Assembly: GCF_024435355.1 (NCBI RefSeq)
Contig: NZ_JAMJWG010000001.1
Location: 248,001 to 312,000 of the forward strand
Length of the DNA stretch: 64,000 bases
Reading direction: 5' to 3'
From: Streptomyces odontomachi
GTDB taxonomy: Bacteria > Actinomycetota > Actinomycetes > Streptomycetales > Streptomycetaceae
A program made the position numbers and the translations under genes. This document shows positions 38,895 to 55,640 of this stretch, in pieces. Position 1 is the stretch's first letter. Every line of letters begins with the position of its first letter. The notes beneath the pieces were generated by a model. It was given only the letters and a program-made list of their open reading frames with translations, had not been told where the DNA came from and searched no databases.

Positions 38895-38925
38895 CCGGCC
38901 TTTCGCGGCGGGTGAGGACCAGCCC

Positions 38926-40137: not shown

Positions 40138-40204
40138 GCCCTGTCGTCAAACTCCCGCCGGACCGCCCTTCGGGCAACGACGGGAGTTTGACGACAGGAC
40201 CTAG
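40134..40204. mobile_element. 63-bp palindromic MITE with CTAG target-site duplication
   Basis: CTAG at 40134-40137 and CTAG at 40201-40204 flank a 63-bp element (40138-40200). Its ends are inverted repeats: CCTGTCGTCAAACTCCCG at 40140-40157 matches CGGGAGTTTGACGACAGG at 40181-40198 perfectly, with one mismatch further out. The centre contains GCCC-TTC-GGGC. CTAG duplication and such ends fit a non-autonomous IS5-like element. It encodes nothing and could act as a terminator after the metallophosphoesterase gene. Confidence 0.7.
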
Positions 40205-40341
40205 CGCCGCACCAGGCCCCGCAGGGCCGGGAGCCCCCACCCGCCGGGAACCCATACCCACCGGGACCAGGCGACGCGCGCAGCGGTGCGCGCACAGGCC
40301 GTGCCGCAACGGATCGACGACGACGCAGAGGAAGGAGGGGG

Positions 40342-41784
40342 ATGCCCGCATCGTCCCCGCCCGAGGCCGTGACACTCGGGGCCCGACTGGACAGGCTGCA
40401 CTGGTCCCGTACCCATCAGGGAATCCTTCTGGCGCTGGGCGCCGGATGGCTGTTCGACTCCCTGGAGATCAACCTCGTGGGCAACGTCATCAGCCCGCTG
40501 AGCGGGCACTTTCATGCCAGCACCCACCAGGCGTCCTTCATCTACTGGGTCTGGCTCATCGGCATCATGCTGGGCGCGGCGGCGGGCGGCCGGCTCGCCG
40601 ACCGGTTCGGCCGCCGTCGCCTCTTCGTCCACACCCTGCTGTGGTACAGCGCCTTCACGATGCTGACCGCGCTCAGCCCCTCGCTGGACGTCGTCTACTT
40701 ACTCCGCTTCAGCACGGCGCTCGGGGTGGGGGCGGAGTACGCCATCATCAACGCGGCCATCGCCGAGTTCATGCCCGCGAAGGTGCGCGGCACCGCGTCG
40801 GCCGGCGTGATGAACTTCTGGTCCATCGGTGCCATCGCCAGCGGTGTGATCGCCTACGTGATGCTCAACACCCTGAGCCTGCCCACCACGGTCTCCTGGC
40901 GTTACGGCTTCGCGCTCGGCGGTGTGCTGGCCCTGGTCGTGCTGCTGTTCCGGCGCCGGGTGCCCGAGTCACCGCGCTGGCTGGTCTCGCAGGGACGGTT
41001 CGAGGAGGCCGAGAAGATCGTCGCCCGGCTGGAACGATCCGCGGGCGTCACGCCCGAAGCAGCACATGCGCCGATCCGGGCCGGGGCGGAGTCGGGCGGC
41101 TCAGCGGTGGAAGCGGTCGTGGCGCTCGTGCGCCGCCACCCGGGCCGGCTGGCGCTCGGCTGCCTCCTGGACCTGTCCGAGGCCTTCGGCTTCTACGGGA
41201 TCTTCGCCGTGCTGTCGATCGTCGTCCTCAAGCGTCTCGGATACAGCGACGGCGAGATCCCGTTCTTCTTCATCCTGGGCAACGTCGGCGGGCTCATCGG
41301 CGGGACCGCCATGACGCTCGGGTTCGAACGCATCGGTCGCCGCGGCACCGTCGGCTTCTACTACGGCGCGTCGGCGGCCAGCGTCGGCGTCCTCGCCGTG
41401 GCCACCGAGTCCGGTGGCAAGACGGCCACGTTGCTGGCGTTCATGCTGTCCTGCGCCTGCGCCACGGGTGCCTGGACGGCGGCGTACCCCACCTTCACCG
41501 AGCTGTTCCCGACGCATCTGCGGGCCGCCGGTGTGGGCATCAGCGTCGGGGTGGGTCGGATCGGGGCGGCGTTCGGCACGCTCTACCTCCCGGACCTCGC
41601 CGAACGGCTCGGACCCACGCCGAGTTACCTGCTCATCGCCGCGTTCTGGGCGGTCGGTCTCGTGGCCATCGTGGTCTGGTCGCTCGCCGGCGGTGTGGAG
41701 GGCGCCCGGCAACCGCTGGAGGCGCTCAGCACCCCGGCACCTCGCCAACCGGCCCCCGCGAACCCCGTGCCGGCCGAAGGGTGA
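40342..41784 (+). CDS. MFS transporter (aromatic acid / sugar-porter-like)
   Basis: 480 aa from ATG 40342, with AAGGAGGGG just upstream. About 12 membrane helices. The N-terminus LGAGWLFDSLEINLVGNVIS carries the Asp common in aromatic-acid and niacin carriers; motif A is GRLADRFGRRRLFVHTLLWY. RVPESPRWLVSQGRFEEAEK marks the central loop. It follows the metallophosphoesterase gene on the same strand with the MITE between. It may export or import the product of the 38193-40137 genes. Confidence 0.88.
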   Translation: MPASSPPEAVTLGARLDRLHWSRTHQGILLALGAGWLFDSLEINLVGNVISPLSGHFHASTHQASFIYWVWLIGIMLGAAAGGRLADRFGRRRLFVHTLLWYSAFTMLTALSPSLDVVYLLRFSTALGVGAEYAIINAAIAEFMPAKVRGTASAGVMNFWSIGAIASGVIAYVMLNTLSLPTTVSWRYGFALGGVLALVVLLFRRRVPESPRWLVSQGRFEEAEKIVARLERSAGVTPEAAHAPIRAGAESGGSAVEAVVALVRRHPGRLALGCLLDLSEAFGFYGIFAVLSIVVLKRLGYSDGEIPFFFILGNVGGLIGGTAMTLGFERIGRRGTVGFYYGASAASVGVLAVATESGGKTATLLAFMLSCACATGAWTAAYPTFTELFPTHLRAAGVGISVGVGRIGAAFGTLYLPDLAERLGPTPSYLLIAAFWAVGLVAIVVWSLAGGVEGARQPLEALSTPAPRQPAPANPVPAEG

Positions 41785-41827: not shown

Positions 41828-42343
41828 TCAGTCGACCTTCGGGCTGCGACGCTCGATGAGGATGACGTCGCGCCAGCGGCCGTGCTGCCGGCCGATGCGC
41901 TCGCGCGTGCCGATGATCCGGAACCCGGCGTGCCGGTGCAGGGCGAGGCTCGCCGCGTTCTCGGGGAAGATGCCGGACTGCACGGTCCAGATCCCCGCGG
42001 CCTCCGTGGAGCCGATCAGGGTGTCGAGCAGCGCGCGGCCGACGTGCCGTCCGCGCGCCTGCGGGGCGACGTAGACCGAGTGCTCGACCACCCCGGCGTA
42101 GGCCGCACGCGGTGACACCCGGCCGGCGGCGATCCAGCCGAGGACCTGACCGGTGGCCGGGGCGAGCGCGACGAAGCGGTGCTCGGGGAGCTTCGCCGCG
42201 TCGAACGCGTCCCAGGTGGGCGCTGTCGTCTCGAAGGTGGCGTCGCCCTCGTCGATGCCGGCCTGGTAGATCGCCAGGACGTCGTGGGCGTGAGCCCTGG
42301 TCAGCGGGGCGATGGTGGGGGCGGCAGGGCGGGCCAGGGACAC
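41828..42343 (-). CDS. GNAT acetyltransferase, phosphinothricin/ArsN1-like
   Basis: 171 aa from GTG 42343, preceded by AGGAG. The family signature DEGDATFETTAPTWDAFDA near the N-terminus matches PAT-type N-acetyltransferases, which acylate phosphinothricin, methionine sulfoximine and related glutamate analogues. The acetyl-CoA loop is VYVAPQARGRHVGRALLDTL; SGIFPENAASLALHRHAGFR is the second conserved block. ArsN1-type relatives acetylate arsinothricin, of interest beside the ArsM/ArsR-like genes here. The true substrate is unknown. Confidence 0.88.
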   Translation of the reverse strand: MSLARPAAPTIAPLTRAHAHDVLAIYQAGIDEGDATFETTAPTWDAFDAAKLPEHRFVALAPATGQVLGWIAAGRVSPRAAYAGVVEHSVYVAPQARGRHVGRALLDTLIGSTEAAGIWTVQSGIFPENAASLALHRHAGFRIIGTRERIGRQHGRWRDVILIERRSPKVD

Positions 42344-42712
42344 GGCGGGTTCTCCTGATGGGGCACGGACGTGGGCCGGATCGGTGCTCAGGTCAGGATG
42401 GCATCGAGGGCGAGGTGCTGCCCGGAGGCGTGCGTGACGCGGAGAACGGTGCTCGTCGAACCCGTGCCGGCGGCGCGCGCGGACCGGGTTCGCCCGCCCC
42501 TGCCCAGACGGCTTCCTGAACGGTGACGTCACGTCAAAATGCGTTCGTGAACGCCAAGTCAGCCGGTTTCAGGTCGGGCGCGGAGCGGTCCGCGAGGGCC
42601 CCTTGACGCTCGACTCGCGCCACCCGTACCTTCATCCGCATGCTGAATCGGTAAATCTCGATTCAGTGGGACTCGGCCGTTCAGCCTGCGACCGGAAAGG
42701 GGGAGCCGCGTC
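42344..42712. other. Divergent intergenic region upstream of the RiPP locus
   Basis: This 369-nt gap separates the leftward acetyltransferase from the rightward OPT transporter. It has no supported gene. Its notable content is the 24-bp palindrome at 42643-42666 (listed separately) and a local AT-richer patch around 42530-42570. Both promoters should lie here. Confidence 0.5.
42643..42666. promoter_or_regulatory. Perfect palindrome upstream of the OPT/RiPP operon
   Basis: CTGAATCG-N8-CGATTCAG is a perfect 8-bp inverted repeat with an AT-rich centre (GTAAATCT), 47 nt before the OPT gene start. Size and form suit a dimeric winged-helix repressor such as the ArsR protein encoded at the far end of the locus. 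I found no second copy near the arsR-like gene, so the pairing is a guess. Confidence 0.5.
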
Positions 42713-44446
42713 ATGCCCGACCGTCACGACACGCAGCCCACCCCGTCCGCCGCAGCCGCTGCGGCCAGCCCCGAGCTGCTCGTGCCGGCCGGCTTAGCGG
42801 AGCGGCCGACGTCGGCTCCCTGGCGCTCGTTCGCCACCACGATCCTCATCGGCTGCGCCATCGGCACGCTGCTGTGCGTGTTGAACGTGCTGGTGCTGTT
42901 CAAGACCGGTTCGTCGTTCGGCGGCTCGGCACTGGTGGCGCTGCTGGGTGCGGCCCTGCTGCGGCTGGTCCGGCGGCTTGACTGGCAGCACCTGTTCATC
43001 GTCTTCTCGCTGGCCTCCAGCGGCTACGTGGCCACCGCCGCCCTCGACACCGGGATCGGCGCGATGATGCTGCGCACCGGGCGGGTGCCCGGCTGGGCCG
43101 TGCTGATCGCGCTGGCCATCGGCGCGAACCTGTGCGGCGCCCTCATCGGGGTCCTGGTCGCACGGAGCTTCGTGTTCGCCGAGCGGCTGCCCTATCCGAC
43201 GCTGCGGCCCGCGGTGACCCTGATGAACGCCCTGACGCGGTCCGGCGACGAGCAGACCAGGAGCGTGCGCCGGGTCCTGCCGCTCACCGCCGCCGCCGGA
43301 GGTGTGCTGGCGCTGGGCGCGCAACTCTGGGACCGCGACACCACCCCCGCCCTGCCGGGCCTGCCGTCCTACCTGGCGCTGTCCCTGTCGCCGCTGCTGG
43401 TGGGTCTCGGCATCCTGATCGGCCCGGTGGCGTGCGGCTGGATGGTGCTCGGCGCGCTCTACGCCGTCGCGATGTGGCTGGTGCAGCAGGGCGGCGGGGC
43501 GGAACCCTCCTACGACCACCACCTGGCCTACCCGTGGGTCCTGGCCTGCGGCGTCGGCATCATCCTGGGCTACTCGCTGATGTCGCTGGTGAAGGTGCGC
43601 GGCCCACTGGCGCACGCGCTCACCGCCGCATGCCGCCCGCTGCTCGCCTCCCCGACCGGCCGCCGCTGGTCCCTGGCCGTCGCCGTCACCGCCGCGGCGG
43701 TACTGGGCACCATGGCCGCCACGCAAGGGCCCTCGGCGCTCGAACGCGTCGGCCTGGTCGTCCTCGCCGCGGCACTGGTGCTGGTGTTCAGCCTCTTCCT
43801 CAACCGGGCCGGCGGCGAGGTCGGCATCGCACCGCTCGCACCGACGCTGTACCTGAGCGTGGCCCTGCTGGCCGCGCTCGGCCTGGGCTCCACCACCGTC
43901 ACCCTGGCCTCCGCGACCATCTGCAGCACGGCCGTCGCCTCGCTCTACTACAGCTACGCGGTGAAGGTGGCCGACAGCGCGCCCGAGGAGGAGTCGGTAC
44001 CCGGGCGGCGCATCCTGTGGACGCAGGCGATCGGAGGCGTGATCGGCGCCGTCCTCGGCATCAGCGTGATCGTTTTGCTGGCCAGGCTCCAGGTGATCGG
44101 CGGGACGGGCTTCCCCGCCCCGGTCGCCCAGGCGCTCGGCTTCATCGACTCCACCGTGCGCGGCAGCGGCGGCTACACCGGCACGATGGGCCTGGCCATG
44201 GGCGTCGGCGGCCCGATCGGCATCGCGCTGACCTTCGTCGGCAAGGCCATGCCGACCATGCTGGGCCTGGGCATTCTGCTGCCGCCCGGCTACGCGCTGA
44301 CCGTCGGCCTGGGCGGACTCGTCCGCCTCGGCGTGCTGCACCACCACCCGGACCGCAGGACCTCACTGGAGACCGCCGCATCCGGCCTGATCATCGGCGA
44401 GGGCGTCGTGATGGTGATCGTCCTGGTACTACGCGCGCTCGGCTAG
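42713..44446 (+). CDS. OPT-family oligopeptide / metal-chelate transporter
   Basis: 577 aa with about 14 hydrophobic segments, the expected build of the oligopeptide transporter (OPT/YSL) family. Segments such as PWRSFATTILIGCAIGTLLC, LNVLVLFKTGSSFGGSAL and GMGLAMGVGGPIGIALTFVG-like loops (TGTMGLAMGVGGPIG) fit the family. Its members carry small peptides or peptide-metal complexes across the membrane. As first gene of the locus it could export the mature product or take it back loaded with a metal or metalloid. The precursor gene follows after 102 nt. Confidence 0.88.
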   Translation: MPDRHDTQPTPSAAAAAASPELLVPAGLAERPTSAPWRSFATTILIGCAIGTLLCVLNVLVLFKTGSSFGGSALVALLGAALLRLVRRLDWQHLFIVFSLASSGYVATAALDTGIGAMMLRTGRVPGWAVLIALAIGANLCGALIGVLVARSFVFAERLPYPTLRPAVTLMNALTRSGDEQTRSVRRVLPLTAAAGGVLALGAQLWDRDTTPALPGLPSYLALSLSPLLVGLGILIGPVACGWMVLGALYAVAMWLVQQGGGAEPSYDHHLAYPWVLACGVGIILGYSLMSLVKVRGPLAHALTAACRPLLASPTGRRWSLAVAVTAAAVLGTMAATQGPSALERVGLVVLAAALVLVFSLFLNRAGGEVGIAPLAPTLYLSVALLAALGLGSTTVTLASATICSTAVASLYYSYAVKVADSAPEEESVPGRRILWTQAIGGVIGAVLGISVIVLLARLQVIGGTGFPAPVAQALGFIDSTVRGSGGYTGTMGLAMGVGGPIGIALTFVGKAMPTMLGLGILLPPGYALTVGLGGLVRLGVLHHHPDRRTSLETAASGLIIGEGVVMVIVLVLRALG

Positions 44447-44480
44447 CCGGCACCGGCATGCCGCAGCGCGCCCGAAAGCT

Positions 44481-44504
44481 TCCTCCGCTGGACCCGGCGG
44501 AGGA
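44481..44504. promoter_or_regulatory. Hairpin between the OPT gene and the precursor peptide
   Basis: TCCTCCGC (44481-44488) pairs perfectly with GCGGAGGA (44497-44504) around an 8-nt loop. It lies 45 nt before the precursor start. It may reduce read-through from the transporter or protect the 5' end of a precursor transcript. Confidence 0.4.
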
Positions 44505-44548
44505 TGGAGGGCACGGCAGAGAACCGCACAGGAAGGAGGTGTTGACCC

Positions 44549-44683
44549 ATGATGGAGATCGCGAACATCGAGGACGCTGAGGTCGAGGAGAAGAAGCCCG
44601 ACTGCTGCACCGCACTGCGCGGCCGCAAGAACCTCGACGTGCAGGCCAACGTGATGCTGGCCGACCCCGAGGGCTGCGAGTAA
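44549..44683 (+). CDS. RiPP precursor peptide (44 aa) with CC and C-terminal Cys
   Basis: ATG 44549 (or 44552) follows a near-perfect AAGGAGGTG; the stop is TAA at 44681. The peptide has an acidic leader-like half (MMEIANIEDAEVEEKKP, residues 1-17) and a C-terminal half with Cys19-Cys20 (PDCCTALRGRK), a central NLDVQANVML (28-37) and Cys43 in DPEGCE. This acidic-leader plus Cys/Asn-rich core layout, strong ribosome site and position directly before a radical SAM/SPASM gene are the marks of a ribosomal peptide substrate. No similar known precursor comes to mind. The core boundaries are guessed. Confidence 0.85.
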   Translation: MMEIANIEDAEVEEKKPDCCTALRGRKNLDVQANVMLADPEGCE

Positions 44684-44712
44684 GACACGCACGATCCGTT
44701 AGAGCACTGCCT

Positions 44713-44728
44713 GACCGGCGAACCGGTC
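44713..44728. promoter_or_regulatory. Hairpin between precursor and maturase genes
   Basis: GACCGG-CGAA-CCGGTC is a perfect 6-bp stem closed by a stable CGAA tetraloop, 30 nt after the precursor stop. Such attenuating hairpins often keep precursor mRNA more abundant than that of the modifying enzymes. It is followed at 44730-44786 by a tiny His-rich open frame (18 codons) of doubtful meaning. Confidence 0.45.
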
Positions 44729-44798
44729 GATGCACCTGCCGTGCCCTCACCTATTGCACCACGAGCCACACCGGTTCAGTCGATAGGAGTAGTGCCCC

Positions 44799-46319
44799 AT
44801 GCACGTGAGCGCCAACACCGTGGAGTTCCGGGTCGAGCTCCCGCCCGATCTCATCGGCCCCGAATACCTGGACCGCGAAGGCAAGGCCTCCGTCCTCGCC
44901 AACGCCGTGTCCGGAAGCATGGACCTGGTCACCCGTAGCGAGGTCGCCGCGCTGGAGCGCCTGCGCGCCGGCCACGCCACCGAGGCGGACCGCGGCGACC
45001 TGGCCGCCTTCAAGGACCGCGGCTACCTCTACGAGGACGAAGCCAGCGAACGGACCGCGTACCAGGGCGTGGTGGACGGCTACTTCCGGGCGATCCAGGA
45101 AGCACCGTTCCAGTTCATGTTCATCCCCTCCTTCGTGTGCAACCTCGCCTGTCCTTACTGCTTCGAGGGCGAGTTGACCACGAAGAGCCCGCAGATGAGC
45201 GACGAGATGATCGAGGCCGCCTTCGACTCGATCCCGATGATCCAGGAGCTGCACGACAACTCCGGGCTGCCCTACATCACCCTCTTCGGCGGCGAGCCCC
45301 TGCTGGACACCGCCTACCAGCGCCGGGCGGTGGAGGAGATCCTGCGCCGGGCCTACGACCGCGGCTACCCCTCCACGGCGATCACCAACGGCGTGGACCT
45401 GGACTCCTACGTTCCGCTGCTCAAGCAGTACGGCTGCGAAGAGGTGCAGGTCAGCCTCGACGGGACCCCGTCGGTGCACGACCAGCGCCGGGTCTACCGC
45501 AACGGTCGGCCGACCTTCCACCGCATCGAGCGGAGCATCGACACCGCGCTGGCCGCCGGCATCCACGTCATGATCCGGCTGCTGGTGGACCGCGAGAGCG
45601 TGGCCGACATGCCCGCCTTCGCCGAGTACGCCAGGAACAAGGGCTGGATCGACAACCCGCTGGTCACCCTCTTCTACGGGTTCACCAAACAGACCACGTT
45701 CCTGTACGTCACCCCCGACCATCCGGAGGAGAAGCGCCGCAACATGGTGCGCGGCGACGTCAAACCCGGGCTGCGTGACGCGTTCTTCGAGATGCTCCAG
45801 GACAACCCCCTGGTCGACGAGATGCTCCGGCCCGACCCGGCGCGCATCCGGTCGGCCGTCATGGAGGGCGACCGGGTGCACCCCAACCTCCAGGGGTGCA
45901 GTGCGGGCACGAGCGTGATCGCCTTCGACCCCAACGGCAAGCTCTACGGCTGCCCGGAGACGGTCGGCCGTCCCCAGCACGCCTGCGGGAGCTACGCCCC
46001 CGAGTTCCGGTACGCGCGGGCCTACCGCGAACCGTGGCGGCACCGCCACGTCGACACCGTCGAGATGTGCCGCCAGTGCAACGTCAAGTTGTTCTGCGGT
46101 GGTGGCGGCTGCCCGATCAAGGCCTGGGCGGCCAGCGGCGGCGACTTCGACACGTGCTACTGCCCCAAGGTCGAGACCATCAAGACCAACGTCGAGCACG
46201 AACTGAGCTACCTGCTCCCGATGCTGCTGCGCCGCAGAAGCGCCACCACCACCGCGCCCAAGAAGGAGGGGACATGGCAGCAAATGACGCAGGCGGGTTC
46301 GTTCCCCTGGATGAGCTGA
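44799..46319 (+). CDS. Radical SAM/SPASM peptide maturase
   Basis: 506 aa. The radical SAM 4Fe-4S motif is Cys114-x3-Cys118-x2-Cys121 in FVCNLACPYCFEGE. GGEP-type SAM contact is TLFGGEPLLD at about 162-170. A C-terminal SPASM domain adds the auxiliary-cluster cysteines 367, 385, 396, 424, 427, 433, 438, 453 and 455 (CRQCNVKLFCGGGGCPIKAW among them). Residues 35-90 could form a peptide-binding winged domain (RRE-like). It should form a C-S or C-C crosslink in the 44-aa peptide. The last 46 nt overlap the methyltransferase gene. Confidence 0.93.
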   Translation: MHVSANTVEFRVELPPDLIGPEYLDREGKASVLANAVSGSMDLVTRSEVAALERLRAGHATEADRGDLAAFKDRGYLYEDEASERTAYQGVVDGYFRAIQEAPFQFMFIPSFVCNLACPYCFEGELTTKSPQMSDEMIEAAFDSIPMIQELHDNSGLPYITLFGGEPLLDTAYQRRAVEEILRRAYDRGYPSTAITNGVDLDSYVPLLKQYGCEEVQVSLDGTPSVHDQRRVYRNGRPTFHRIERSIDTALAAGIHVMIRLLVDRESVADMPAFAEYARNKGWIDNPLVTLFYGFTKQTTFLYVTPDHPEEKRRNMVRGDVKPGLRDAFFEMLQDNPLVDEMLRPDPARIRSAVMEGDRVHPNLQGCSAGTSVIAFDPNGKLYGCPETVGRPQHACGSYAPEFRYARAYREPWRHRHVDTVEMCRQCNVKLFCGGGGCPIKAWAASGGDFDTCYCPKVETIKTNVEHELSYLLPMLLRRRSATTTAPKKEGTWQQMTQAGSFPWMS

Positions 46320-47101
46320 CCGGCCCGCGACCCGTGCTGGCGGTCGAGACCGCCGTGCACGTACCGGTGGAGACCGCGGTCAAGGAGCGCTACGACACCC
46401 TTGCGCAGGCCGGCGCGAGCAATCTGTGCTGTGCCCCGCAGGCCGTCTACGGCTCCGATGAGCTGGACGGGGTTCCGCAGTGGGTGCTGGACCTGTCCAG
46501 CGGCTGCGGCGCGCCGCTCGGCGCCATCACGCTCGACCCCGGCCAGACCGTCGCCGACTTCGGCTGCGGCGCCGGTCTGGATCTGATCCTGGCGGCCCGG
46601 CGGGTCGGCCCCACGGGACGCGTCATCGGGATCGACGGGTCGATGAGCATGGTGCGCACCGCCCGCCGTGCGGTCAAGGAGATGGGCCTGGCCAACGTCG
46701 ACGTACGGGTCGGCGACATCCGCCGCCCGCCGTTGCGCTCCGGCAGCGTCGACGTCCTGTTCAGCAACTGCGTCCTGGGCATGTTCCCGGACAAGGCCGA
46801 GGTGCTGGCGGCGATCGGCGACGCCCTGCGGCCCGGCGGCTACGCCGTGATCTCCGACGTCGTCTACCTGGACGAGGTGCCCGAGGGAGCGGTCAGCGCG
46901 GACGCAGCCGACGCCGACGACTACGCACGCTGCGTGGTGGGGCTGACCGCCGAGCAGTACCGGCAACTGGTCACCGACGCGGGCTTCGAGCACGTCGTGA
47001 TCCGCGACGACGGCCAGGTCTCCTACCGTGACGGGGCCCGGGTCGCCAGCGCGACGATCCTGGCCTACCGCGGCGCCGCGCCCGAGGCGCCATGCTGCTG
47101 A
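46274..47101 (+). CDS. SAM methyltransferase of the arsenite methyltransferase (ArsM) type
   Basis: 275 aa from ATG 46274 after AAGGAGGGG, starting inside the maturase gene. The Rossmann core is DFGCGAGLDLILAARRVGPT with GIDGSMSMV. Cysteines match the As(III)-ligand positions of ArsM enzymes by context: Cys52-Cys53 (SNLCCAP), Cys78 (SSGCGAPLG), Cys166 (FSNCVLGMFPDK) and Cys220 (YARCVVGLTAEQY); another CC ends the protein (274-275). Family knowledge says such sets bind arsenite during methylation. Here it may methylate arsenic held by the peptide, or it may be adapted to methylate a peptide thiol. Confidence 0.88.
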   Translation: MAANDAGGFVPLDELTGPRPVLAVETAVHVPVETAVKERYDTLAQAGASNLCCAPQAVYGSDELDGVPQWVLDLSSGCGAPLGAITLDPGQTVADFGCGAGLDLILAARRVGPTGRVIGIDGSMSMVRTARRAVKEMGLANVDVRVGDIRRPPLRSGSVDVLFSNCVLGMFPDKAEVLAAIGDALRPGGYAVISDVVYLDEVPEGAVSADAADADDYARCVVGLTAEQYRQLVTDAGFEHVVIRDDGQVSYRDGARVASATILAYRGAAPEAPCC

Positions 47102-48471
47102 CCCGTGGCACACGGCGGCCGTTCGCCGCGGCGGGGCTGCGTGCGGACGAGTATGCGGAAGTGCGCCGCGAGCGCACCCGCCTGCTCACCGCCGTGTGGC
47201 GGGGCGGCGCCCTGGAGAGCGTCAACCGCGTGGTGGACGAGGGCGGGTGCGCGCGGGTGCTCAGCCCGCGCGGCTCGTCCTTCGTCTGCGCCACCGAAGC
47301 GGACCTGGACGACGTCCTGCGCCGGGCCCGCCACCAGGCGGACCGGCTCGGGGCCGCCCCGGTGCGTCCCGCGGACCGCGAGCCGGCCCGCGGCAGTCAC
47401 GCGCCGGCCGTACCCGAACCGGCCACCGACGTCCCCCTGGACGAGCAGCTGGACCTGCTCGCCGGCTGGCACGCCCGCGCCCTGAACGCCCATCCGGACA
47501 TCTCCGGCGCCCTGGTGTACTACCGTCACGCGACCACCACCGTGGACCTGGCCACCAGTGACGGCGGCGAGGTCAGCTGGACGCGCGCCGACCTGACGCT
47601 CCAGATCACCCTCTACGCGGGCGCGGGGGACACGCGGGGCGCCGGCTCGGTCTCCGTCGGCAGCCACGGTGACTTCGCCGCGGTGCGCGATCTGGCCGCG
47701 CGCATCGACGAGGCCGCGGCCACCGCGGTGGACCTGGCCCGTGCCCCGGCCCTGGAAGCGGGCAGCTACGACGTGGTGTGCGACGGCCCGCTGGCGGCCA
47801 CCTGGGCCCACGAGACGGTCGGGCACCTGGCGGAGGCCGACCACCAGCAGGGCGCACCCGCCGCCATCGAGGCGCTGCGGCCCGGCCGCCGGCTCGGCCC
47901 GGAGGAACTGACGATCGTCGACCGCCCCGGCCCGCCGACCGCGCGCGGCCACGTCCCCGTCGACGACGAGTGCACCACCGGCCGGGAGGTCACCCTCATC
48001 GACCGGGGACGCGTGGGCACCCCCCGCCTTCACGACCTGCGCACCGCCGCCGCCTTCCACGAGGCACCGACCGGCAACGCCCGAGCCCTGAACTACCGTC
48101 ACCCACCCCTGCCCCGCCTCCGCACGACCTGCGTCGAGGCGGGCACCAGCACGCTGGAGGAGATGATCCAAGGGGTGCGGTCCGGGTTGCTCGCCCAAGG
48201 ACTCTTCGGCGGGCAGACGAACCGCTCCGGATTCGCCTTCCTGCCCGCCGCCTGCCGCGTCATCCGCGACGGCGAGGTCCGGGGCCTGGTCAAAGGCGCC
48301 GTGCTGACCGGCGACGTGCTGGACACCTTCGCCACGGTGGACGCGGTGGGGCGGGAGGTGTGGCGCGGCGACACCTCCGCCAGTTGCGGCAAGCAGGGCC
48401 AGACCCCGCTGCCGGTCTCCTGCTGGGCACCGGCGCTGCGCCTGAGGGGGCTGCACGTCGATGCCGGCTGA
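47092..48471 (+). CDS. TldD-family metalloprotease subunit
   Basis: 459 aa, overlapping the methyltransferase gene by 10 nt. The zinc motif is His240-Glu241-x3-His245 in AHETVGHLAEAD, and the C-terminal TldD signature with the third ligand Cys is SASCGKQGQTPLPVS. TldD works as a heterodimer with TldE to thread and cut unfolded or modified peptides, as in microcin B17 maturation. Here it should remove the leader or chop the modified precursor. Its partner is the next gene, which overlaps it by 11 nt. Confidence 0.9.
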   Translation: MLLTRGTRRPFAAAGLRADEYAEVRRERTRLLTAVWRGGALESVNRVVDEGGCARVLSPRGSSFVCATEADLDDVLRRARHQADRLGAAPVRPADREPARGSHAPAVPEPATDVPLDEQLDLLAGWHARALNAHPDISGALVYYRHATTTVDLATSDGGEVSWTRADLTLQITLYAGAGDTRGAGSVSVGSHGDFAAVRDLAARIDEAAATAVDLARAPALEAGSYDVVCDGPLAATWAHETVGHLAEADHQQGAPAAIEALRPGRRLGPEELTIVDRPGPPTARGHVPVDDECTTGREVTLIDRGRVGTPRLHDLRTAAAFHEAPTGNARALNYRHPPLPRLRTTCVEAGTSTLEEMIQGVRSGLLAQGLFGGQTNRSGFAFLPAACRVIRDGEVRGLVKGAVLTGDVLDTFATVDAVGREVWRGDTSASCGKQGQTPLPVSCWAPALRLRGLHVDAG

Positions 48472-49852
48472 GACGACGCACCGGCTGGACGACACGGTCG
48501 CGGCCATCCGCACGGCGGCCTCGGCCCGTACCCCGAACTGGCAGCTGCTGGCGCTGGACCGCCGCGAGACCACCGCGGAGCTCTCCTGCGGGCAGATCGA
48601 CGCGGCCCGTGCCGCACAGGAGACCACGGCCTGGCTGCGCCTGGTGGTGGACGGCCGGGTCGGCACCGCCACCACCAGCCGCCCCGACCGCGTCGACGAC
48701 CTCGTCCGGGACGCCTGGGACTGCGCCCGCCACGGACCCGAAGCCGGGCAGGACACCGAGCCCCCCACCCTCGCGCACGAACGGCGCCTGCCCGATGGCG
48801 GCCGGCGCCCCGGTGCCGCCCCGCCGACCGCTGACGAGGTGCTCGCCGGCACCGGTGAACTCGCCGGCGAGATCGCCGGCCTCCAGCGGCGTTCCGGACT
48901 CCACGTGCACGGCACGATCACGCGGGTGGGCGAGGCGGTGCACGTCGCCTCGCCCACCGGCGTCGTGCACGACCGGCTGGGCCACTGGGGCGTCGCCGCC
49001 GTCGCGGAACGCCCCGACGCGGAAGGCATGCAGGTGAGTTGGCACTCCTGGACCGGTCGCCCGGTGCTCGCGGACGAGGTCGCCGACTGGACGGTCGCCA
49101 CCGGAGGCTGGCGGGACCTGCCCGCCCTGCCCTGCCCGACGGACCTGCGGGAGGTGCTGCTGGCTCCGGGCGCGGTGCACGCGCTGCTGTCTCCCGTGCT
49201 GCGCTCGCTCAGCGGCCCCGCCACCCAGGGCCGCTCCTTCCTCCCCGCCGACCTGGGCGAACGCCTGCTGAACAAGCGCCTGACCGTCACCGACGGAGCA
49301 CACCCGGACGCGCCGGCGAGCGGCGCGGCGGACGGACTGCCCCGCCCGGTGGTCGACGACGAGGGCGTGGCCTGCCACCCCCTCGTGCTGGTCGAGGCGG
49401 GCACCCCCTGCCGGCGCTACCACACCCGGCACAGCGCCGCAGCCGCCGGTGTGCCGCCGACCGGACACGGTTTCCGGGGCAGTGCGCTGCGGCGCAAGCC
49501 CTTGCAGCCGGTCTCCGCGGTCCTGGGCGACGTGCGGGTGCACGCTGACGCCGCCCTGAGCGGCTCCTGGCGCTCCCTGCTGTCCTCGGTCGAGTCCGGC
49601 ATCGTCGTCGAGTCGCTGCTCGGCGCCGAACAGAAGGGCAGGCTGTCGCCCGTCGTCGAGGGCGGCGTGCAGCAGGGGTTCGTCGTCCGCCGCGGTCGGG
49701 TGGTGGGGCTGCTGCGCCGTACCCGGTTCCGGATGGACGTGCGCGAGGCGCTCGGCGCCGAGCTGGCCGGCGTCTCGACGCAGAGCTGGCCGGTCAGCAA
49801 GGTGTGGACCGGCACCCTGCCGTTCCTGCTGGTCCGGGCGGCGGGCTCGTAG
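48461..49852 (+). CDS. TldE/PmbA-family protease partner subunit
   Basis: 463 aa. It has the TldE/PmbA layout (N-terminal AELSCGQIDAARAAQETTAW, central GTITRVGEAVHVASPTGVVH, C-terminal SSVESGIVVESLLGAEQKG and VWTGTLPFLLVRA) but no HExxxH, as expected for the non-catalytic partner of TldD. Overlap with the tldD-like gene implies 1:1 synthesis. Together they form the locus-specific leader peptidase. Confidence 0.88.
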   Translation: MPAETTHRLDDTVAAIRTAASARTPNWQLLALDRRETTAELSCGQIDAARAAQETTAWLRLVVDGRVGTATTSRPDRVDDLVRDAWDCARHGPEAGQDTEPPTLAHERRLPDGGRRPGAAPPTADEVLAGTGELAGEIAGLQRRSGLHVHGTITRVGEAVHVASPTGVVHDRLGHWGVAAVAERPDAEGMQVSWHSWTGRPVLADEVADWTVATGGWRDLPALPCPTDLREVLLAPGAVHALLSPVLRSLSGPATQGRSFLPADLGERLLNKRLTVTDGAHPDAPASGAADGLPRPVVDDEGVACHPLVLVEAGTPCRRYHTRHSAAAAGVPPTGHGFRGSALRRKPLQPVSAVLGDVRVHADAALSGSWRSLLSSVESGIVVESLLGAEQKGRLSPVVEGGVQQGFVVRRGRVVGLLRRTRFRMDVREALGAELAGVSTQSWPVSKVWTGTLPFLLVRAAGS

Positions 49853-49905
49853 GCCCCGACAGGCCCGACGGGCTCCGACGGGCTCCGACGAAGGAGGGGA
49901 TCCCC

Positions 49906-51156
49906 ACGTACGACGCGATCATCGTCGGCGGGCGGGTGGCCGGCTCGATCACCGCCACCCTGCTGGCGCAACGCAACTGGCGGGTGCTGCTGCTCGACCG
50001 GGCACCGCTGCCCAGCCCCGCGGTCTCCACGCACTTCTTCGGCCCCACCGTGCTGGCCTTCTTCGCGGAGCTCGGCGTACTCGACCGGGTCCGCGCCACC
50101 GGTGCGCCGCCCCTCGCCCACTGGCACCTGCACCTGGGGGACAACTACTACGGCGGGCCCATGCTGCCGCGGGCCACGCACCCCTACAACCTGTGCGTCC
50201 GCCGGGAGACCCTGGACGGCATCCTGCTGCACCGCGCCGAGGCCGAGCCCCTGGTGGAGGTGCGAGACCGGTGCTCGGTGCGTGCCCTGCTCCGTGAGGA
50301 CGGCCAGGTGATCGGCGTCGCCGGGGCCGGCTGGGAGGAGAAGGCCCGGGTGATCGTCGGCGCCGACGGACGCGGCTCGCTGGTCGCCCAGCAACTCGGT
50401 GTCCGGCCCGAGTACGACGCCGGCGCCCTGCGCTGCACGTTCCACGCCTACTGGCGCGGGGTGCACCCCCTTCCTGAGCCGTCCTTGGAGCTGTGGCACG
50501 ACGACGGCGACGTCATCCAGACCGGACCGTGCGACGGTGACCAGTGGGTGGTGATGGTCTCGACCCCACCGGAACGGTTCGAGCAACTGCGCGCCGACGG
50601 CGGCGCCGGTTACGAACGGCGCCTGCGCGCCATCCCCGCGATGCGGGCACGGCTGCGCAGCGCCGAGCGCATCTCCCCGGTCTTCGCCGGCAAGAACCTC
50701 CGCAACTTCCACCGGCCCGCCGCCGGACCGGGCTGGCGGCTGGTCGGCGACGCCCTGTGCCACAAGGACCCGCTGTTCGGCGCGGGCATCGCCGACGCCA
50801 TCGCCGCGGCCCGAGTCCTCGCGCCGACCCTGGACGCGGCGCTGAGCGGGAGAACCAGCTGGGAGGAGAGCGCCGCGCAGTACGCGCAGGAGACCGAGAC
50901 CAGGATCGCCCGCCGGATGCGCCAGGGCCTCGAAGAGCTGACCATCCGACCCCCCGCCCCCGGGCAACGCGCCTGGATCCGCAGCGTGCTCGGGCACCCC
51001 GGCCTCGCCTTCGAACTGGCCGAGCACTGCTCCCACCTGTTCGCGGCCCTGCCCGCCGACCGCCAGACGTTCTGGCAGAAGGCGGCCGACACCACCGCCG
51101 AGGTCCTCGGGTTGCCCCCGGCCGCCCGGCTGACCCCCGACGAGGACACCCGGTGA
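49906..51156 (+). CDS. FAD-dependent oxidoreductase/monooxygenase, probable ACG start
   Basis: 416 aa if translation begins at ACG 49906. GGAGG (49893-49897) lies 8 nt before it, and TYDAIIVGGRVAGSITATLL is exactly where related flavoproteins begin MYDAIVVG. No ATG, GTG or TTG lies in the intergenic part of this frame; GTG 49804 would overlap tldE by 49 nt and add implausible sequence. The second FAD motif is VIVGADGRGSLVAQQLG and the third WRLVGDALCHKDPLFGAGIA. It belongs to the PHBH/geranylgeranyl-reductase-like fold and likely oxidises the modified peptide or a fragment. Confidence 0.85.
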   Translation, partial: TYDAIIVGGRVAGSITATLLAQRNWRVLLLDRAPLPSPAVSTHFFGPTVLAFFAELGVLDRVRATGAPPLAHWHLHLGDNYYGGPMLPRATHPYNLCVRRETLDGILLHRAEAEPLVEVRDRCSVRALLREDGQVIGVAGAGWEEKARVIVGADGRGSLVAQQLGVRPEYDAGALRCTFHAYWRGVHPLPEPSLELWHDDGDVIQTGPCDGDQWVVMVSTPPERFEQLRADGGAGYERRLRAIPAMRARLRSAERISPVFAGKNLRNFHRPAAGPGWRLVGDALCHKDPLFGAGIADAIAAARVLAPTLDAALSGRTSWEESAAQYAQETETRIARRMRQGLEELTIRPPAPGQRAWIRSVLGHPGLAFELAEHCSHLFAALPADRQTFWQKAADTTAEVLGLPPAARLTPDEDTR

Positions 51157-52562
51157 CCGGCCCTGACCTGCCCGGCTACCTGGCGCCCCACGCCGCCGAC
51201 CTGGCCGCCTTGCAGCGCACCGTCGCCCATGAGCGATGGCTGGCCGCCACCGGCCGCGATCCGGGCCCCGCCCAGGACGCGGCACGGCACCCCGCGCGCC
51301 TCGTCGACGGCTCCCTCGTCCGCACCGCGCTCGACCACGGCGACCTCTCCCTGGCCCACGAACTCGTGCTGTGGTACTTCCGCACGGCGCTGGCGGAACC
51401 GACCCGCGTCCTACGGGCCGCACAGCGCACCCGCACCGCCGACGTGGACGGCCGTGCGCTCAGCCACGCCGAACTCCTGGCCGCCCGGCGTGCCGCGGGC
51501 TCCACCGCCGAGCGCGAGCGGCTCAGCCGTGCCGTGACCGAGGTGAACGCGAGGCTCGACCAGGAGCGGCTCCGCTGGCTCGACCAGCACGCGGCGGCCG
51601 TGCACCGGCTCGGGTTCCCCTCGCACGGCCACCTGGTGCGCGCGCTGCACCCGGACGCCGACGGCTGGGTCGCCGACGCCGAGGACTACCTCCGGCGGAC
51701 CCGCGACGACTTCCTGACCCGCTGGCGGCGCTGGCAGGAGCGGGACGGCCTGGCCGCCCCACGCCTGCTGGACACCCGGACGGTCGCCGAACGCGCCGGC
51801 ACCCTGGACGACCCGCTGGCCGCGGTGGCGGCGACCGTGCAGGAATGGGGCCTGTCCGCGGCCCTGGCCCGGATCACCGTCGACAGTGCGGCCCGCGCCG
51901 GAAAGCTCACGTTCTCCTTCTGCTCGCCGGTGGACCCGCCCCATGACGTGCGGATGTCGGTCAGCCCTGGCCGTGCGCTGCGCGACCTGCCGCCGCTGCT
52001 GCACGAGTTCGGGCATGCGCTGCACTTCACCGCCGGTCTTGCGCACCCCTGGGACCTGTGGCGGATCCCCACCCCGCTGACCGAGGCCGTCGGCTTCGCC
52101 GTGGAGCACGTCGTCCACCAGCCGCCGTGGCAGGAGCGACGGTTGGGTGGGCCGCTGTCCGCCGAGGCGGCCGACCGGTTGCGCTTCGGACGGGAGGCGG
52201 TGCGCAGGATGATCGCCACCAGCCTCTGCTACGAGATGGCCGTGCACGACGGGCACCGCGACCCCCGTGGCCGGTACGAGGAGCTGTTCGGCCGCGAGTT
52301 CGGCATCACCGTCAGCGGCACGGAGGCGTTCAACCGGCTCCAGGCCTACCTGGAGGGCCAGCCCTGCTACCCGCTCGTGTACCACCAGGCCTACCAACTG
52401 CGCGAACCGCTCTGGCAGCACCTGGTGCGGCAGGGCGGACCCTACTGGTGGGCGGGCGAGAGTGCGGGTGACGCCCTGCTGGACCTGTTCGCGGCGGTCG
52501 GCCGCACGGCACCGGCGGACTGGTCAGCGGCCGCCCTCCAGGCCCCGCGGTCACGCGCTTGA
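51153..52562 (+). CDS. Zinc metallopeptidase (HExxH, M3-like)
   Basis: 469 aa, GTG start inside the previous stop. The long helical N-terminal region and the zinc site LLHEFGHALHF (His284, Glu285, His288), with Glu ligands in LTEAVGFAVEHVV about 25 residues later, fit thimet-oligopeptidase/M3-like gluzincins. LTFSFCSPVDPPHDVRMSVS and GTEAFNRLQAYLEGQPCYPL are the regions around the substrate channel. M3 enzymes cut short peptides. It probably trims the peptide released by TldD/TldE. Its 3' end overlaps the convergent M1 gene by 12 nt. Confidence 0.87.
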   Translation: MTGPDLPGYLAPHAADLAALQRTVAHERWLAATGRDPGPAQDAARHPARLVDGSLVRTALDHGDLSLAHELVLWYFRTALAEPTRVLRAAQRTRTADVDGRALSHAELLAARRAAGSTAERERLSRAVTEVNARLDQERLRWLDQHAAAVHRLGFPSHGHLVRALHPDADGWVADAEDYLRRTRDDFLTRWRRWQERDGLAAPRLLDTRTVAERAGTLDDPLAAVAATVQEWGLSAALARITVDSAARAGKLTFSFCSPVDPPHDVRMSVSPGRALRDLPPLLHEFGHALHFTAGLAHPWDLWRIPTPLTEAVGFAVEHVVHQPPWQERRLGGPLSAEAADRLRFGREAVRRMIATSLCYEMAVHDGHRDPRGRYEELFGREFGITVSGTEAFNRLQAYLEGQPCYPLVYHQAYQLREPLWQHLVRQGGPYWWAGESAGDALLDLFAAVGRTAPADWSAAALQAPRSRA

Positions 52563-55139
52563 GGCCTCCAGCGCGCGGTCCCTGCGCCGCAGGGCGACGG
52601 CGCGGGAGAACTCGGCGCGTGCCTCTTCGATGATCCGGTGCAACGCGGCCGGCACCTCGGCCTGGAGCAGGTGCTGCGCCCCCGCCGTGACGGTGTCCTC
52701 CGCGCCCCACCAGGGGAACAGCAGGCGGGAGAGCTGACCCGCCTGCTCCGCAGGGCGTTGTCGCCACACTGCGGGGATGTCCGCGAAGTACCGCCGGGCG
52801 AACGGGGCCAGGGCACCGCGTTGTCCGGGCGGCGCGAACCCGGTGGCCGCGGCGCGGGCCAGCGCCACCGGCACGTCGGCGATCAGCACGGCGCGCCGCC
52901 ACGCCGCCTCCTTGGCCGCCGCGTCCGGCAGCGCGGCACGCGCACGCTCCCTGCGTGCCTGCGCCGCCGTCGACTCGTCCGCACCGGCTTCGGCGTCGAG
53001 GTCCGTGGCGCTCAGCCGGCCGTGGGCGGCCAGTGCGGCCAGCAACCGCCAGCGCAGGTCCGCGTCGAGCGTGAGGCCGTCCGGCAGCGCCCTGCCCGCA
53101 CACCACTCCTGCACGCGCTCCAGCAGCTGCGGCTCCAACTGCGCCTCCGCGAGCGCCCGGCAGCAGATCAGCCGCTGGTCGGGGGTGGCGTGGCTGCCCG
53201 ACACACCGTCGACCAGCGCTGCGGTCAACGCCGGCCATCCCCGGGCCGTGGCCCACTGCGGGTCGACGTAGCCGGTCAGGGCGGTACGGGCCTGCCGCAG
53301 CACGCGCTGGAGGACACCGGACTGCCGCTCGGTGGCCATGCCGCAGGCCACCACCTGGAGGAAGTCCCGGGCGGGCAGGGCGGCGTCCTGCACCATGTCC
53401 CACAGCGACGACCAGCACAGGGCGCGGGCGAGCGGGTCGCGCAGTGCGGCCATATGGGTGCGCAGCCCGGCCACCGACTCGGGGTCCAGGCGCACGCGGC
53501 AGTAGCCCAGGTCGGCGTCGTTGGGCAGCACCAGCGTGCCGCGTGACCGTCCGACCAGCGCGGGCACCGCCACCTCGGCACCCTCCAACGCCACCGTGAC
53601 CTGATCGACGCGGACCAGGGCAGCACCGGCCGAGCCGTCGGCGGTCGGCTGGTAGACGCCCACGGCGACCTTCTGCGGGCGGTGCGTGTGCGCCGGGCCG
53701 TCCTGGACGAGCCGGAAGCGGGTGAACCGGCCCGTGCCGTCGGTGGCGAAGTCCGCCCGCAGCACGCCCGGCCCGGTGGTGCGCAACCAGCGCTCCGCCC
53801 AGCCGTGCACATCGCGTCCGGACGCCTCGTGCAGGCACGCCAGCAGATCGGCCGAGGTCGCCGTGGCGTACCGGTGGCCCTCGAAGTAGCGCCGGAGCGC
53901 GGCCAGGAACGCCTCGATCCCGGTGTACTCGACCAACTGCCGTATCAGCGCCGCACCCTTGGCGTAGGTGATGTAGTCGAAGTGCGCCTGCGCCTGCTCG
54001 ACGTCCTCGACGGCGAAGGCCACGGGGTGCGTCGAGGCGAGCCGGTCCTGTGCGTAGGCCCAGGCCTTCTTGGTCGACGCGAACAGCGCCCAGGCGTCCG
54101 GATGCCGCCCGAGCTCGCTCTGCGCCCACAACGCCGCCCACGTGGCGAAGGCCTCGTTGAGCCACAGATCGTCCCACCAGCGCAGCGTGACCAGGTTTCC
54201 GAACCACATGTGGGCGATCTCGTGCAGCAGCATCTCGTCGCGCCGCTGCACCGCGTTGCGGGTCGGCTGGGTGCCGTACAGGAAGTCGTCCACGGCGGTG
54301 ATGCAGCCGGCGTTCTCCATCGCGCCGGCGCCGAACTCCGGCACGAAGCAGACGTCGAGCTTGGGAAACGGGAAGGGTACGCCGAAACGGGACTCGAAGA
54401 AGCCGAGACCGGCCTTGATCTGGCCGAAGAGGTCCTCGGCCGCCAGGCGCCCGGCCAGTGAGCGGCGGCAGAACAGGCTCAGGGGGACTGCTCCGGCACT
54501 GCCGGGGAAGGAGTCGTCGACCCTGGCGAACGGACCGGCGGCAAACGCGATGTGGTAGGTGCTCAGCGGGTCGGTGGGCTGGAAGGTGCAGCGCACCGCG
54601 CCGTCCGGCAGCTCCTCACGCGCGACCAGGGGAGTGTTGGACACCGCCTCCCAGCCGTGCGGAACGACCAGCGACAGGTGGTACGGGGCCTTGAGATCGG
54701 GCTGGTCGAAGCAGGCGAAGGCGCGGCGCGCGTGGGTGGTCTGGAAGTGGCTGTAGACGTAGCACGTCCCGTCGGCCGGGTCGACGAAGCGGTGCAGCCC
54801 GTGGCCCTCGCGCGCGTAGGTGTGGACGGCGTCCACCGAGAGCTCGTTCTCCGCGGCGAGCGCCGGCAGCCGGATGCCCTCGGGGAGGCGGTCGGCGTCG
54901 GTGAGGGGGCGCCCGTTGAGCTCCGCACGGGTGATGTCCCGCGCCCGCGTGTCGACCCAGGTCGCCGCTCCGGGACTCGGGCTGGAGAAACGGATCGTGG
55001 AACGGCTGCGGAAGGCCGGTACCGGTACGTCGCCCGAACCGGCCGCGTCCCGTAGATCCACCTCGACGCGGTACCCCTGCACCCGCAGTACCGCGCTGCG
55101 TGCCTCGACCTGGGTGCGGATCAGTGGAGAAGTGCTCAG
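52551..55139 (-). CDS. pepN: M1-family aminopeptidase N, probable CTG start
   Basis: About 862 aa if started at CTG 55139, 843 aa from the in-frame GTG 55082. Exopeptidase motif GAMEN is in PEFGAGAMENAGCIT, and the zinc site is MLLHEIAHMWFGNLVTLRWW followed by LWLNEAFATWAALW. A C-terminal ERAP1-like helical domain follows. Related PepN proteins have about 20 residues before VQGYRVEVDL; here LIRTQVEARSAVLR fits that and is reachable only from CTG (GGGGG 6 nt upstream), since no ATG/GTG/TTG precedes it. It removes N-terminal residues one by one and is divergent from the ArsR gene. Confidence 0.92.
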   Translation of the reverse strand: MSTSPLIRTQVEARSAVLRVQGYRVEVDLRDAAGSGDVPVPAFRSRSTIRFSSPSPGAATWVDTRARDITRAELNGRPLTDADRLPEGIRLPALAAENELSVDAVHTYAREGHGLHRFVDPADGTCYVYSHFQTTHARRAFACFDQPDLKAPYHLSLVVPHGWEAVSNTPLVAREELPDGAVRCTFQPTDPLSTYHIAFAAGPFARVDDSFPGSAGAVPLSLFCRRSLAGRLAAEDLFGQIKAGLGFFESRFGVPFPFPKLDVCFVPEFGAGAMENAGCITAVDDFLYGTQPTRNAVQRRDEMLLHEIAHMWFGNLVTLRWWDDLWLNEAFATWAALWAQSELGRHPDAWALFASTKKAWAYAQDRLASTHPVAFAVEDVEQAQAHFDYITYAKGAALIRQLVEYTGIEAFLAALRRYFEGHRYATATSADLLACLHEASGRDVHGWAERWLRTTGPGVLRADFATDGTGRFTRFRLVQDGPAHTHRPQKVAVGVYQPTADGSAGAALVRVDQVTVALEGAEVAVPALVGRSRGTLVLPNDADLGYCRVRLDPESVAGLRTHMAALRDPLARALCWSSLWDMVQDAALPARDFLQVVACGMATERQSGVLQRVLRQARTALTGYVDPQWATARGWPALTAALVDGVSGSHATPDQRLICCRALAEAQLEPQLLERVQEWCAGRALPDGLTLDADLRWRLLAALAAHGRLSATDLDAEAGADESTAAQARRERARAALPDAAAKEAAWRRAVLIADVPVALARAAATGFAPPGQRGALAPFARRYFADIPAVWRQRPAEQAGQLSRLLFPWWGAEDTVTAGAQHLLQAEVPAALHRIIEEARAEFSRAVALRRRDRALEASSA

Positions 55140-55262: not shown

Positions 55263-55640
55263 ATGGACAAGAGTCAGGTTTCAGCCATGGAGCCGGCGGA
55301 CTGCCGCACCGCGCTGACCGGCGTCTCCCTCCGCCCGGAGCGCATCACCGACCTCGCCCGGTGCTACAAGGCACTCGGCGACCCCGTCCGCCTCCGCCTG
55401 CTCCTGCTGATCGCCGGGACGCTGGAGGGCGAGGTGTGCGTGTGCGAACTCGTCGATGCCTTCGACCTCGCCCAGTCCACCATCAGCCACCATCTGAAGA
55501 TCCTGCGCGATGCCGGCCTGGTCGCGTCACAGCGCCGCGGGACCTGGGTCTACTACTGGATCAACCCCACGGCCCGTGAAACCCTCCGACCGGTCCTCGG
55601 GCCGCTCCTGCACGAGGCGGCCGGGGCGGCGGCCTGCTGA
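55263..55640 (+). CDS. ArsR-family regulator with CVC metalloid site
   Basis: 125 aa, ATG 55263 after GGGAGG. The winged helix is LVDAFDLAQSTISHHLKILR (about 63-82) with the wing RRGTWVYYWINP. GEVCVCELVDAFDL places Cys59 and Cys61 at the ELCVCDL motif that senses As(III)/Sb(III) in classical ArsR repressors; a further Cys ends the protein. It lies divergent to the M1 aminopeptidase gene at the end of the RiPP locus. It probably represses the locus until a metalloid or soft metal binds. Confidence 0.92.
   Translation: MDKSQVSAMEPADCRTALTGVSLRPERITDLARCYKALGDPVRLRLLLLIAGTLEGEVCVCELVDAFDLAQSTISHHLKILRDAGLVASQRRGTWVYYWINPTARETLRPVLGPLLHEAAGAAAC

Follow-up and report, generated by a model that had tools for sequence, protein, structure and literature searches.

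Layout of the locus

The DNA analysed here (the window) is a stretch of 64,000 nucleotides from Streptomyces odontomachi (contig NZ_JAMJWG010000001.1, positions 248,001 to 312,000). In it, a short open reading frame lies between the gene for an OPT-family transporter and that for a radical SAM/SPASM enzyme (rSAM), which is followed by genes for an ArsM-type methyltransferase, a TldD/TldE pair, an FAD monooxygenase-like protein, M3-like and M1 peptidases and an ArsR/SmtB-type regulator (Table 1). The peptide read from this frame is MMEIANIEDAEVEEKKPDCCTALRGRKNLDVQANVMLADPEGCE. As the initial annotation had described it, the frame has 44 codons, its product has an acidic N-terminal half and cysteines at positions 19, 20 and 43, and the rSAM gene starts 115 nt past its end. 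The frame proved to be real and conserved. The near-perfect Shine-Dalgarno site and the flanking hairpins that had been claimed for it were likewise located.

The arrangement AAGGAGGTG-N7-ATG occurs twice in the whole 10.57 Mb assembly. A counterpart of the upstream hairpin lies in the same place in G108, a genome of the same genus as the window, and comparison by eye shows one pair with both bases exchanged and a G-U pair replaced by G-C. Scans around the frame found no terminator-like T-run and no sigma-70 promoter. Among the other products, the FAD monooxygenase-like protein has weak similarity to QhpG (NCBIfam), and the OPT protein gave no match when compared with solved structures.

Table 1 Features of the cluster and its surroundings in the window, with two example peptides from distant loci (last row)
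Feature	Position	Strand	Basis
ArsN1a-like GNAT acetyltransferase, upstream of OPT	41828..42532	-	Best match NF040503, 126.7 bits, below cut-off 170
Promoter-like TTGACG-N18-TACCTT	42603..42632	+	Read by eye
Operator-like palindrome TGAATCGGTAAATCTCGATTCA before OPT	42644..42665	+	Near-identical in the same place in G108
OPT-family transporter, directly upstream of precursor	42713..44446	+	Family search, conserved position
Hairpin, OPT-precursor gap	44481..44504	+	Stretch 44470-44515, z -4.1; stem kept in G108
Shine-Dalgarno site AAGGAGGTG	44533..44541	+	Sequence; GGAGGTG likewise before the G108 and Streptosporangiaceae copies
Precursor peptide, 44 aa, invariant Cys19/Cys20/Cys43	44549..44683	+	ORF reading, comparison with relatives
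Short hairpin, precursor-rSAM gap	44713..44728	+	Stretch 44700-44740, z -3.2
Radical SAM/SPASM enzyme, CX3CX2C at residues 114-121	44799..46319	+	Family search, alignment, model
ArsM-type methyltransferase, gene next after rSAM	46274..47101	+	Family search, structure alignment
TldD-type metalloprotease subunit, HETVGH motif	47092..48471	+	Family search, motif
TldE-type partner, without HExxxH	48461..49852	+	Family search, motif
FAD monooxygenase-like protein, start uncertain (homology from about 49880-49903)	49804..51156	+	Family search
M3-like peptidase, HEFGH motif	51153..52562	+	Weak family match
M1 aminopeptidase N, HEIAH and GAMEN	52551..55082	-	796.8 bits, NCBIfam cut-off 591.2
ArsR/SmtB-type regulator, CVCEL motif	55263..55640	+	NF033788, 94.6 bits, cut-off 55
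AQCC(A/S)K...GCHD peptides (examples)	L106:9774-9887; L041:9801-9908		With ArsM-like methyltransferase and related rSAM/SPASM gene

The genes at 37971-41784 were considered as cluster members and dropped, having no homologue in the near loci defined below or in the searched part of G108. At 37971-40137, a gene for a Cys-rich protein without a Pfam match and then one for a metallophosphoesterase, again with no homologue in the near loci, lie upstream of an MFS transporter gene. Just beyond the cluster ArsR gene, at 55925-56698 on the reverse strand, a protein is encoded that has four stretches of the RTX calcium-binding repeat (PF00353).

Conservation of the peptide with its radical SAM gene

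No curated Pfam or NCBIfam family matches the peptide, and among 5.8 billion proteins searched only four matches came back: the peptide itself and three homologues at 67-77% identity. A search with the rSAM protein found 30 proteins, of which 21 align over the whole length at 57-95% identity (P0001-P0020, P0022), one is partial at 75% (P0021) and eight stand at 29-36%; the named sources are Streptomyces, Amycolatopsis, Sphaerisporangium, Microbispora, Nocardioides and Paenibacillus, with P0006 from Amycolatopsis tolypomycina, P0022 from Paenibacillus beijingensis and P0021 from a Nocardioides MAG. When genome contigs were scanned for rSAM relatives, the best 80 of 145 were kept, giving 79 loci, which comprise seven near loci at 72-74% identity (L033-L039) and 72 distant ones at 26-34% (L040-L111). 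The rSAM gene is rare: with the window's genome included each time, it is present in 2 of 392 genomes from the genus and 3 of 394 from the class, and no match was found in plasmids at E 1e-50.

Ten cluster-bearing genomes were compared, namely the window's own, G108, the seven of L033-L039 and G585, and in all ten the peptide adjoins the rSAM gene. A peptide of the form DCCTA(L/M)RGRKNLDV...GC lies directly upstream of the rSAM gene in every one of the seven near loci, and all ten genes are kept there and in G108 in the order OPT, peptide, rSAM, ArsM-type, TldD, TldE, FAD monooxygenase-like, M3, M1 (reverse strand), ArsR. The initial annotation had proposed co-occurrence with the maturase in other actinobacteria as a check, and the pattern is a strict one: across 297 genomes of one actinobacterial family (that of G091), at thresholds of E 1e-60 for rSAM and E 0.001 for the peptide, the rSAM gene is present in eight, the peptide in the same eight and always adjacent, with neither found alone. 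Nor did the outcomes that had been named as refuting it appear, since no stop codon interrupts any compared copy of the frame and the frame is conserved beside the maturase homologues.

Between the window and G108, whose peptides are 91% identical, the peptide gene differs at 10 nucleotides, eight of them at third codon positions (dN 0.039, dS 0.266). Seven distinct copies of the peptide share 20 invariant residues, C19, C20 and C43 among them.

The radical SAM/SPASM enzyme

Besides the CX3CX2C motif, cysteines at positions 367, 385, 424, 427, 433, 438 and 455 of the rSAM protein are invariant in all 22 sequences aligned. An AlphaFold model built with 22 sequences has a mean pLDDT of 74.9, falling below 50 in parts of the SPASM region, and its closest solved structure is CteB (5wgg, E 7.2e-15), the maturase of SCIFF/thermocellin, followed by anSME, SuiB and ChlB. 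Taken together, the radical SAM/SPASM type, the conserved cluster cysteines and CteB as the best fold match of the model point to a RiPP maturase. Read from secondary structure, the first 100 residues look RRE-like, with the order of strands and helices expected of a RiPP recognition element.

Membership of a described maturase family was rejected on scores. None of the 25 best NCBIfam models reaches its cut-off; the best two, which describe maturases of Cys-rich peptides, are CefB (NF038107; 125.6 bits against a cut-off of 600) and TIGR04463 (107.4 against 525), and the SCIFF maturase model gives 93.8 bits against 425, so that the enzyme belongs to neither the SCIFF/CteB nor the CefB family. 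SCIFF precursors are small, Cys-rich peptides, as is the one here. The cluster differs from CteB/SCIFF in the peptide itself and in having an ArsM-type partner, TldD/E and OPT.

The reading of the frame as a RiPP precursor acted on by the adjacent rSAM enzyme is well supported, because co-occurrence and adjacency, third-position changes, invariant cysteines and the CteB-like model all argue for it, and the peptide is very probably the substrate of that enzyme. The initial annotation had gone further and made it the substrate of the downstream enzymes generally. Adjacency, purifying selection, the RiPP-maturase-like model and the clustered TldD/E and M1 peptidases speak for this part, and the cluster is wider than it implied, with the upstream OPT gene belonging to it.

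The ArsM-type methyltransferase

The methyltransferase aligns to the solved arsenic methyltransferases 4fr0 and 4kw7 (E 7.6e-18), with C78, C166 and C220 in the places of their C72, C174 and C224. We take these structures to be CmArsM and the three residues to be its As(III)-binding cysteines. All 9 near methyltransferases keep this triad, and its three positions are conserved in 65, 67 and 66 of 68 distant ones. The ArsM model NF008823 scores the cluster enzyme at 175.9 bits, below its cut-off of 263, and in a tree of 5 near, 19 distant, 6 canonical and 14 other sequences the cluster copies form a branch of their own within the ArsM-type group, with weak deep forks; the tree does not join near and distant enzymes, and a single clade of the two was given up. 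A second ArsM, above the cut-off and with an ArsN-like GNAT gene beside it, is encoded elsewhere in the window's genome (G000:C36, 77360-78115), so the cluster copy need not be the general arsenite methyltransferase of this organism. In the reading favoured below, the cluster enzyme likely acts on arsenic held by the peptide.

The regulator and an operator-like palindrome

The CVC[DE]L motif of the ArsR/SmtB-type regulator is kept in eight of eight copies and in G108. We take CVC(D/E)L to be the As(III)-binding motif of E. coli ArsR, one that other metal sensors share; the As-sensing ArsR structure 6j0e, aligned to the cluster regulator, has VSV, not CVC, at the motif. Upstream of OPT, a palindrome pattern, CATYGATANNTATCRATG, was derived from the sites themselves, and it is present with 0-1 mismatches in all eight Streptosporangiaceae loci, a count that is not independent of the pattern taken from them. 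A diverged form, TGAATCGGTARATCTCGATTCA, is common to the window and G108 in the same place.

The pattern recurs with 2-3 mismatches before an aquaporin gene in five loci and with 2-4 mismatches in the ArsR-CobW gap of four genomes, and further matches with 4 mismatches were seen at other places. When 410 kb was block-shuffled three times, 2-5 matches with up to 4 mismatches arose, one of them with 3 mismatches and none with 2 or fewer. The palindromes before OPT, before the aquaporin gene and in the ArsR-CobW gap fit one regulon, and the ArsR-type regulator is predicted to bind them. The cluster as a whole probably responds to arsenic. The window genome carries an ArsR-ACR3-ArsC run elsewhere (G000:C27:7143-8583); the same operator was sought at this operon and at the canonical ArsM and rejected there, as only matches with 5 or more mismatches were found.

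Arsenic genes around the cluster

Ten loci (the window, G108 and eight from Streptosporangiaceae) were compared over unequal flanks, which in most cases reached 10 kb upstream and 25 kb downstream; the eight come from one family and are not independent. Arsenate-reductase-like, ACR3 efflux or ArsN-like genes are nearby in nine of the ten cluster-bearing genomes. An ArsN-like domain is found near the cluster in nine loci (partial in G617 and G585), an ArsC-type reductase in seven (the best matches of those scanned are arsenate reductases, below cut-offs) and a full-length ACR3, always above cut-off, in four (G091, G617, G585 and G108); CobW GTPase genes are present in nine and MIP aquaporin genes in seven. 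ArsN1a is the arsinothricin resistance acetyltransferase.

Full-length ACR3 is encoded in six of the ten genomes, seven genes in total, four of which lie 14-22 kb from the rSAM gene; the binomial probability of four of seven within 25 kb is 3.6e-8 if shared ancestry is ignored. G108 is an independent case: its cluster ArsR gene is followed by CobW, aquaporin, a TrxR-like frame, two ArsC-type genes, a second ArsR and ACR3, and the arrangement of ars-type genes near the cluster differs between it and the Streptosporangiaceae.

The association is uneven. No ArsC, ACR3 or ArsN-like domain was found in the flanks of G511, and an ArsM/ArsN-like fusion is the only ars-type gene in those of G608. In the window, a search from 44 kb upstream to 31 kb downstream of the rSAM gene gave no ArsC, ACR3, aquaporin or CobW match, and the ArsN-like gene is the only neighbour from the ArsN-like/ArsC/ACR3 set. 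The initial annotation, well supported in its reading of a RiPP precursor, had missed this link to arsenic, both in the ArsM-type, ArsR-type and ArsN-like genes at the locus and in the ars genes near the clusters of its relatives.

Two further arrangements were seen near the cluster. In the Streptosporangiaceae genera Microbispora and Sphaerisporangium, a gene past the cluster fuses an arsenite-methyltransferase-like domain with an ArsN1a-like acetyltransferase domain, the latter a relative of the window's GNAT protein (L143:13243-14538, L144:1845-3062), and two Microbispora genomes have C-terminal ACR3 fragments, read as remnants (G527:C61:38427-38597, G630:C134:23769-23888).

A distant set of related systems

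An ArsM-like match is present in 68 of the 72 distant loci, and in 67 it lies immediately before the rSAM gene and shares its strand. In 61 of the 72 there is, on the strand of the rSAM gene and no more than 2.5 kb from it, a peptide ending in QCC(A/S)K...GCHD (LCC in L044); 11 loci lack such a peptide. These systems are found in Clostridia, Bacteroidota, Spirochaetota, Myxococcota and others. A profile search for the AQCC...GCHD peptides gave 1,489 matches at E up to 1, and among the 120 listed any that carries a name is called a hypothetical protein.

A profile of the near rSAM proteins scores 220-277 bits on 20 distant ones, against 46-65 on 16 other actinobacterial SPASM proteins. The rSAM tree held 20 of the 72 distant loci, 9 near proteins and the 16 actinobacterial SPASM proteins, so the distant enzymes are a related branch only relative to those 16. 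In 38 of the 72 distant loci the rSAM gene is followed within 1 kb by apparent thioredoxin-thioredoxin reductase fusions, judged by eye, and some loci encode a DUF1847-like Cys protein; the two together suggest a redox role in this branch. The idea that the distant loci are parts of ars operons was set aside, as only 1 of 72 has both ACR3 and ArsC, many of these loci being short.

Discussion

Arsinothricin and the arsenosugars are complex organoarsenicals made by a known route that pairs ArsM with a radical SAM enzyme (PMC8552651, PMC12159101). Here such a pair sits with a ribosomal three-Cys peptide. In the arsinothricin cluster arsQML, ArsL is predicted to move the aminocarboxypropyl group of SAM onto free arsenite, and the available text of the source describes no peptide precursor (PMC8552651); the rSAM enzyme here is a SPASM protein beside a peptide gene. 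In the arsenosugar route, C-As chemistry likewise involves ArsM and a radical SAM enzyme, ArsS, and arsenic is there adenosylated toward a sugar with no peptide in the portions available, unlike in this cluster (PMC8552651, PMC12159101). On the peptidase side, TldD/E and M1 (AplP) remove RiPP leaders, for example those of microcin B17 and NAI-112, and the same protease families recur here; the accessible part of that source mentions no arsenic genes (PMC10885120). A search of titles and the beginnings of abstracts, with most subscription journals outside it, returned no description of an arsenic RiPP or of this peptide, which is not proof that there is none. RiPPs known to be processed by TldD/E and M1 use other modifying enzymes than this cluster.

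A pathway can be drawn from these parts. As(III) would bind the ArsR-type regulator and free the promoter before OPT, and translation of the peptide would start from a strong ribosome-binding site of its own. The acidic N-terminal half of the peptide may dock on the N-terminal domain of the rSAM enzyme, and Cys19, Cys20 and Cys43 would then hold As(III) or be crosslinked by that enzyme through a C-S or C-As bond; three cysteines should suffice for an As(III)S3 site. The ArsM-type enzyme would methylate the arsenic, TldD/TldE, the M1 aminopeptidase and the M3-like peptidase would remove the leader, the FAD enzyme could tailor the core, the OPT transporter would move the product and the ArsN-like acetyltransferase would protect the host. 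That the locus encodes a conserved three-Cys RiPP precursor for the adjacent rSAM/SPASM enzyme, in a cluster found near arsenic-resistance genes in most relatives and with an ArsM-type enzyme likely acting on peptide-held arsenic, is a composite reading to which, judging from sequence comparison, we give an even chance. That arsenic is part of the product is possible, if somewhat doubtful, and that it enters through a C-As bond is unlikely.

The same genes could make an arsenic-free RiPP with a thioether or other crosslink, the ArsM-type enzyme having been recruited to methylate a cysteine or other residue of the peptide and the ars neighbours reflecting a shared resistance island. The nearest structure to the rSAM model is a thioether maturase, the methyltransferase branches separately and scores below the ArsM cut-off, ArsC and ACR3 are missing near the window's cluster and the two occur together in just 1 of 72 distant loci, all of which speaks for this account. 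It is harder to see why such a pathway would keep the arsenite-site triad throughout the near methyltransferases and in nearly all of the distant ones, sit beside differently arranged ars-type genes in G108 and Streptosporangiaceae, and have an operator-like site in common with neighbouring aquaporin and CobW genes, and we think this account improbable. Three invariant cysteines, an OPT gene conserved directly upstream and an ArsR-type regulator among ars-type neighbours would also suit a ribosomal arsenic chelator or metallophore, in which the thiols bind As(III) or another soft metal and OPT exports or imports the complex for detoxification with no C-As bond. This we rate as distinctly unlikely, given that TldD/TldE, the M1 and M3-like peptidases and the FAD monooxygenase-like protein suggest a processed small molecule and that full-length ACR3 already gives arsenite efflux in six of the ten genomes.

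Finally, the frame might encode a small regulatory or structural peptide, or be an untranslated stretch open by chance. The evidence is all from sequence and the hairpins could be regulatory, but the codon-position pattern, the invariant core and the same-genome co-occurrence with the rSAM gene make this a very remote prospect.

Returning to a product that contains arsenic, its most far-reaching form would be an organoarsenical made by the ribosome, the first of its kind: the peptide's three thiols would take up As(III), the SPASM enzyme would form a C-As bond on the peptide, the ArsM-type enzyme would methylate the arsenic, and peptidases would set free an arsenical, either an amino acid or a short peptide, for OPT to carry and the ArsN-like enzyme to disarm in the producer. 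We put this forward as a speculative and unlikely proposal; if true, the distant AQCC...GCHD systems would represent the same chemistry in a second and far larger branch. As it stands, the comparison defines a ten-gene, possibly arsenic-responsive cluster in Microbispora, Sphaerisporangium and two Streptomyces, and exposes a widespread unannotated AQCC...GCHD peptide family, which several phyla pair with an ArsM-type methyltransferase and a related rSAM enzyme. If the reading is right, it would join RiPP biosynthesis and arsenic metabolism, fields that do not meet in the literature searched, and whether a ribosomal peptide carries or chelates arsenic becomes, with this ten-gene cluster, a directly testable question.
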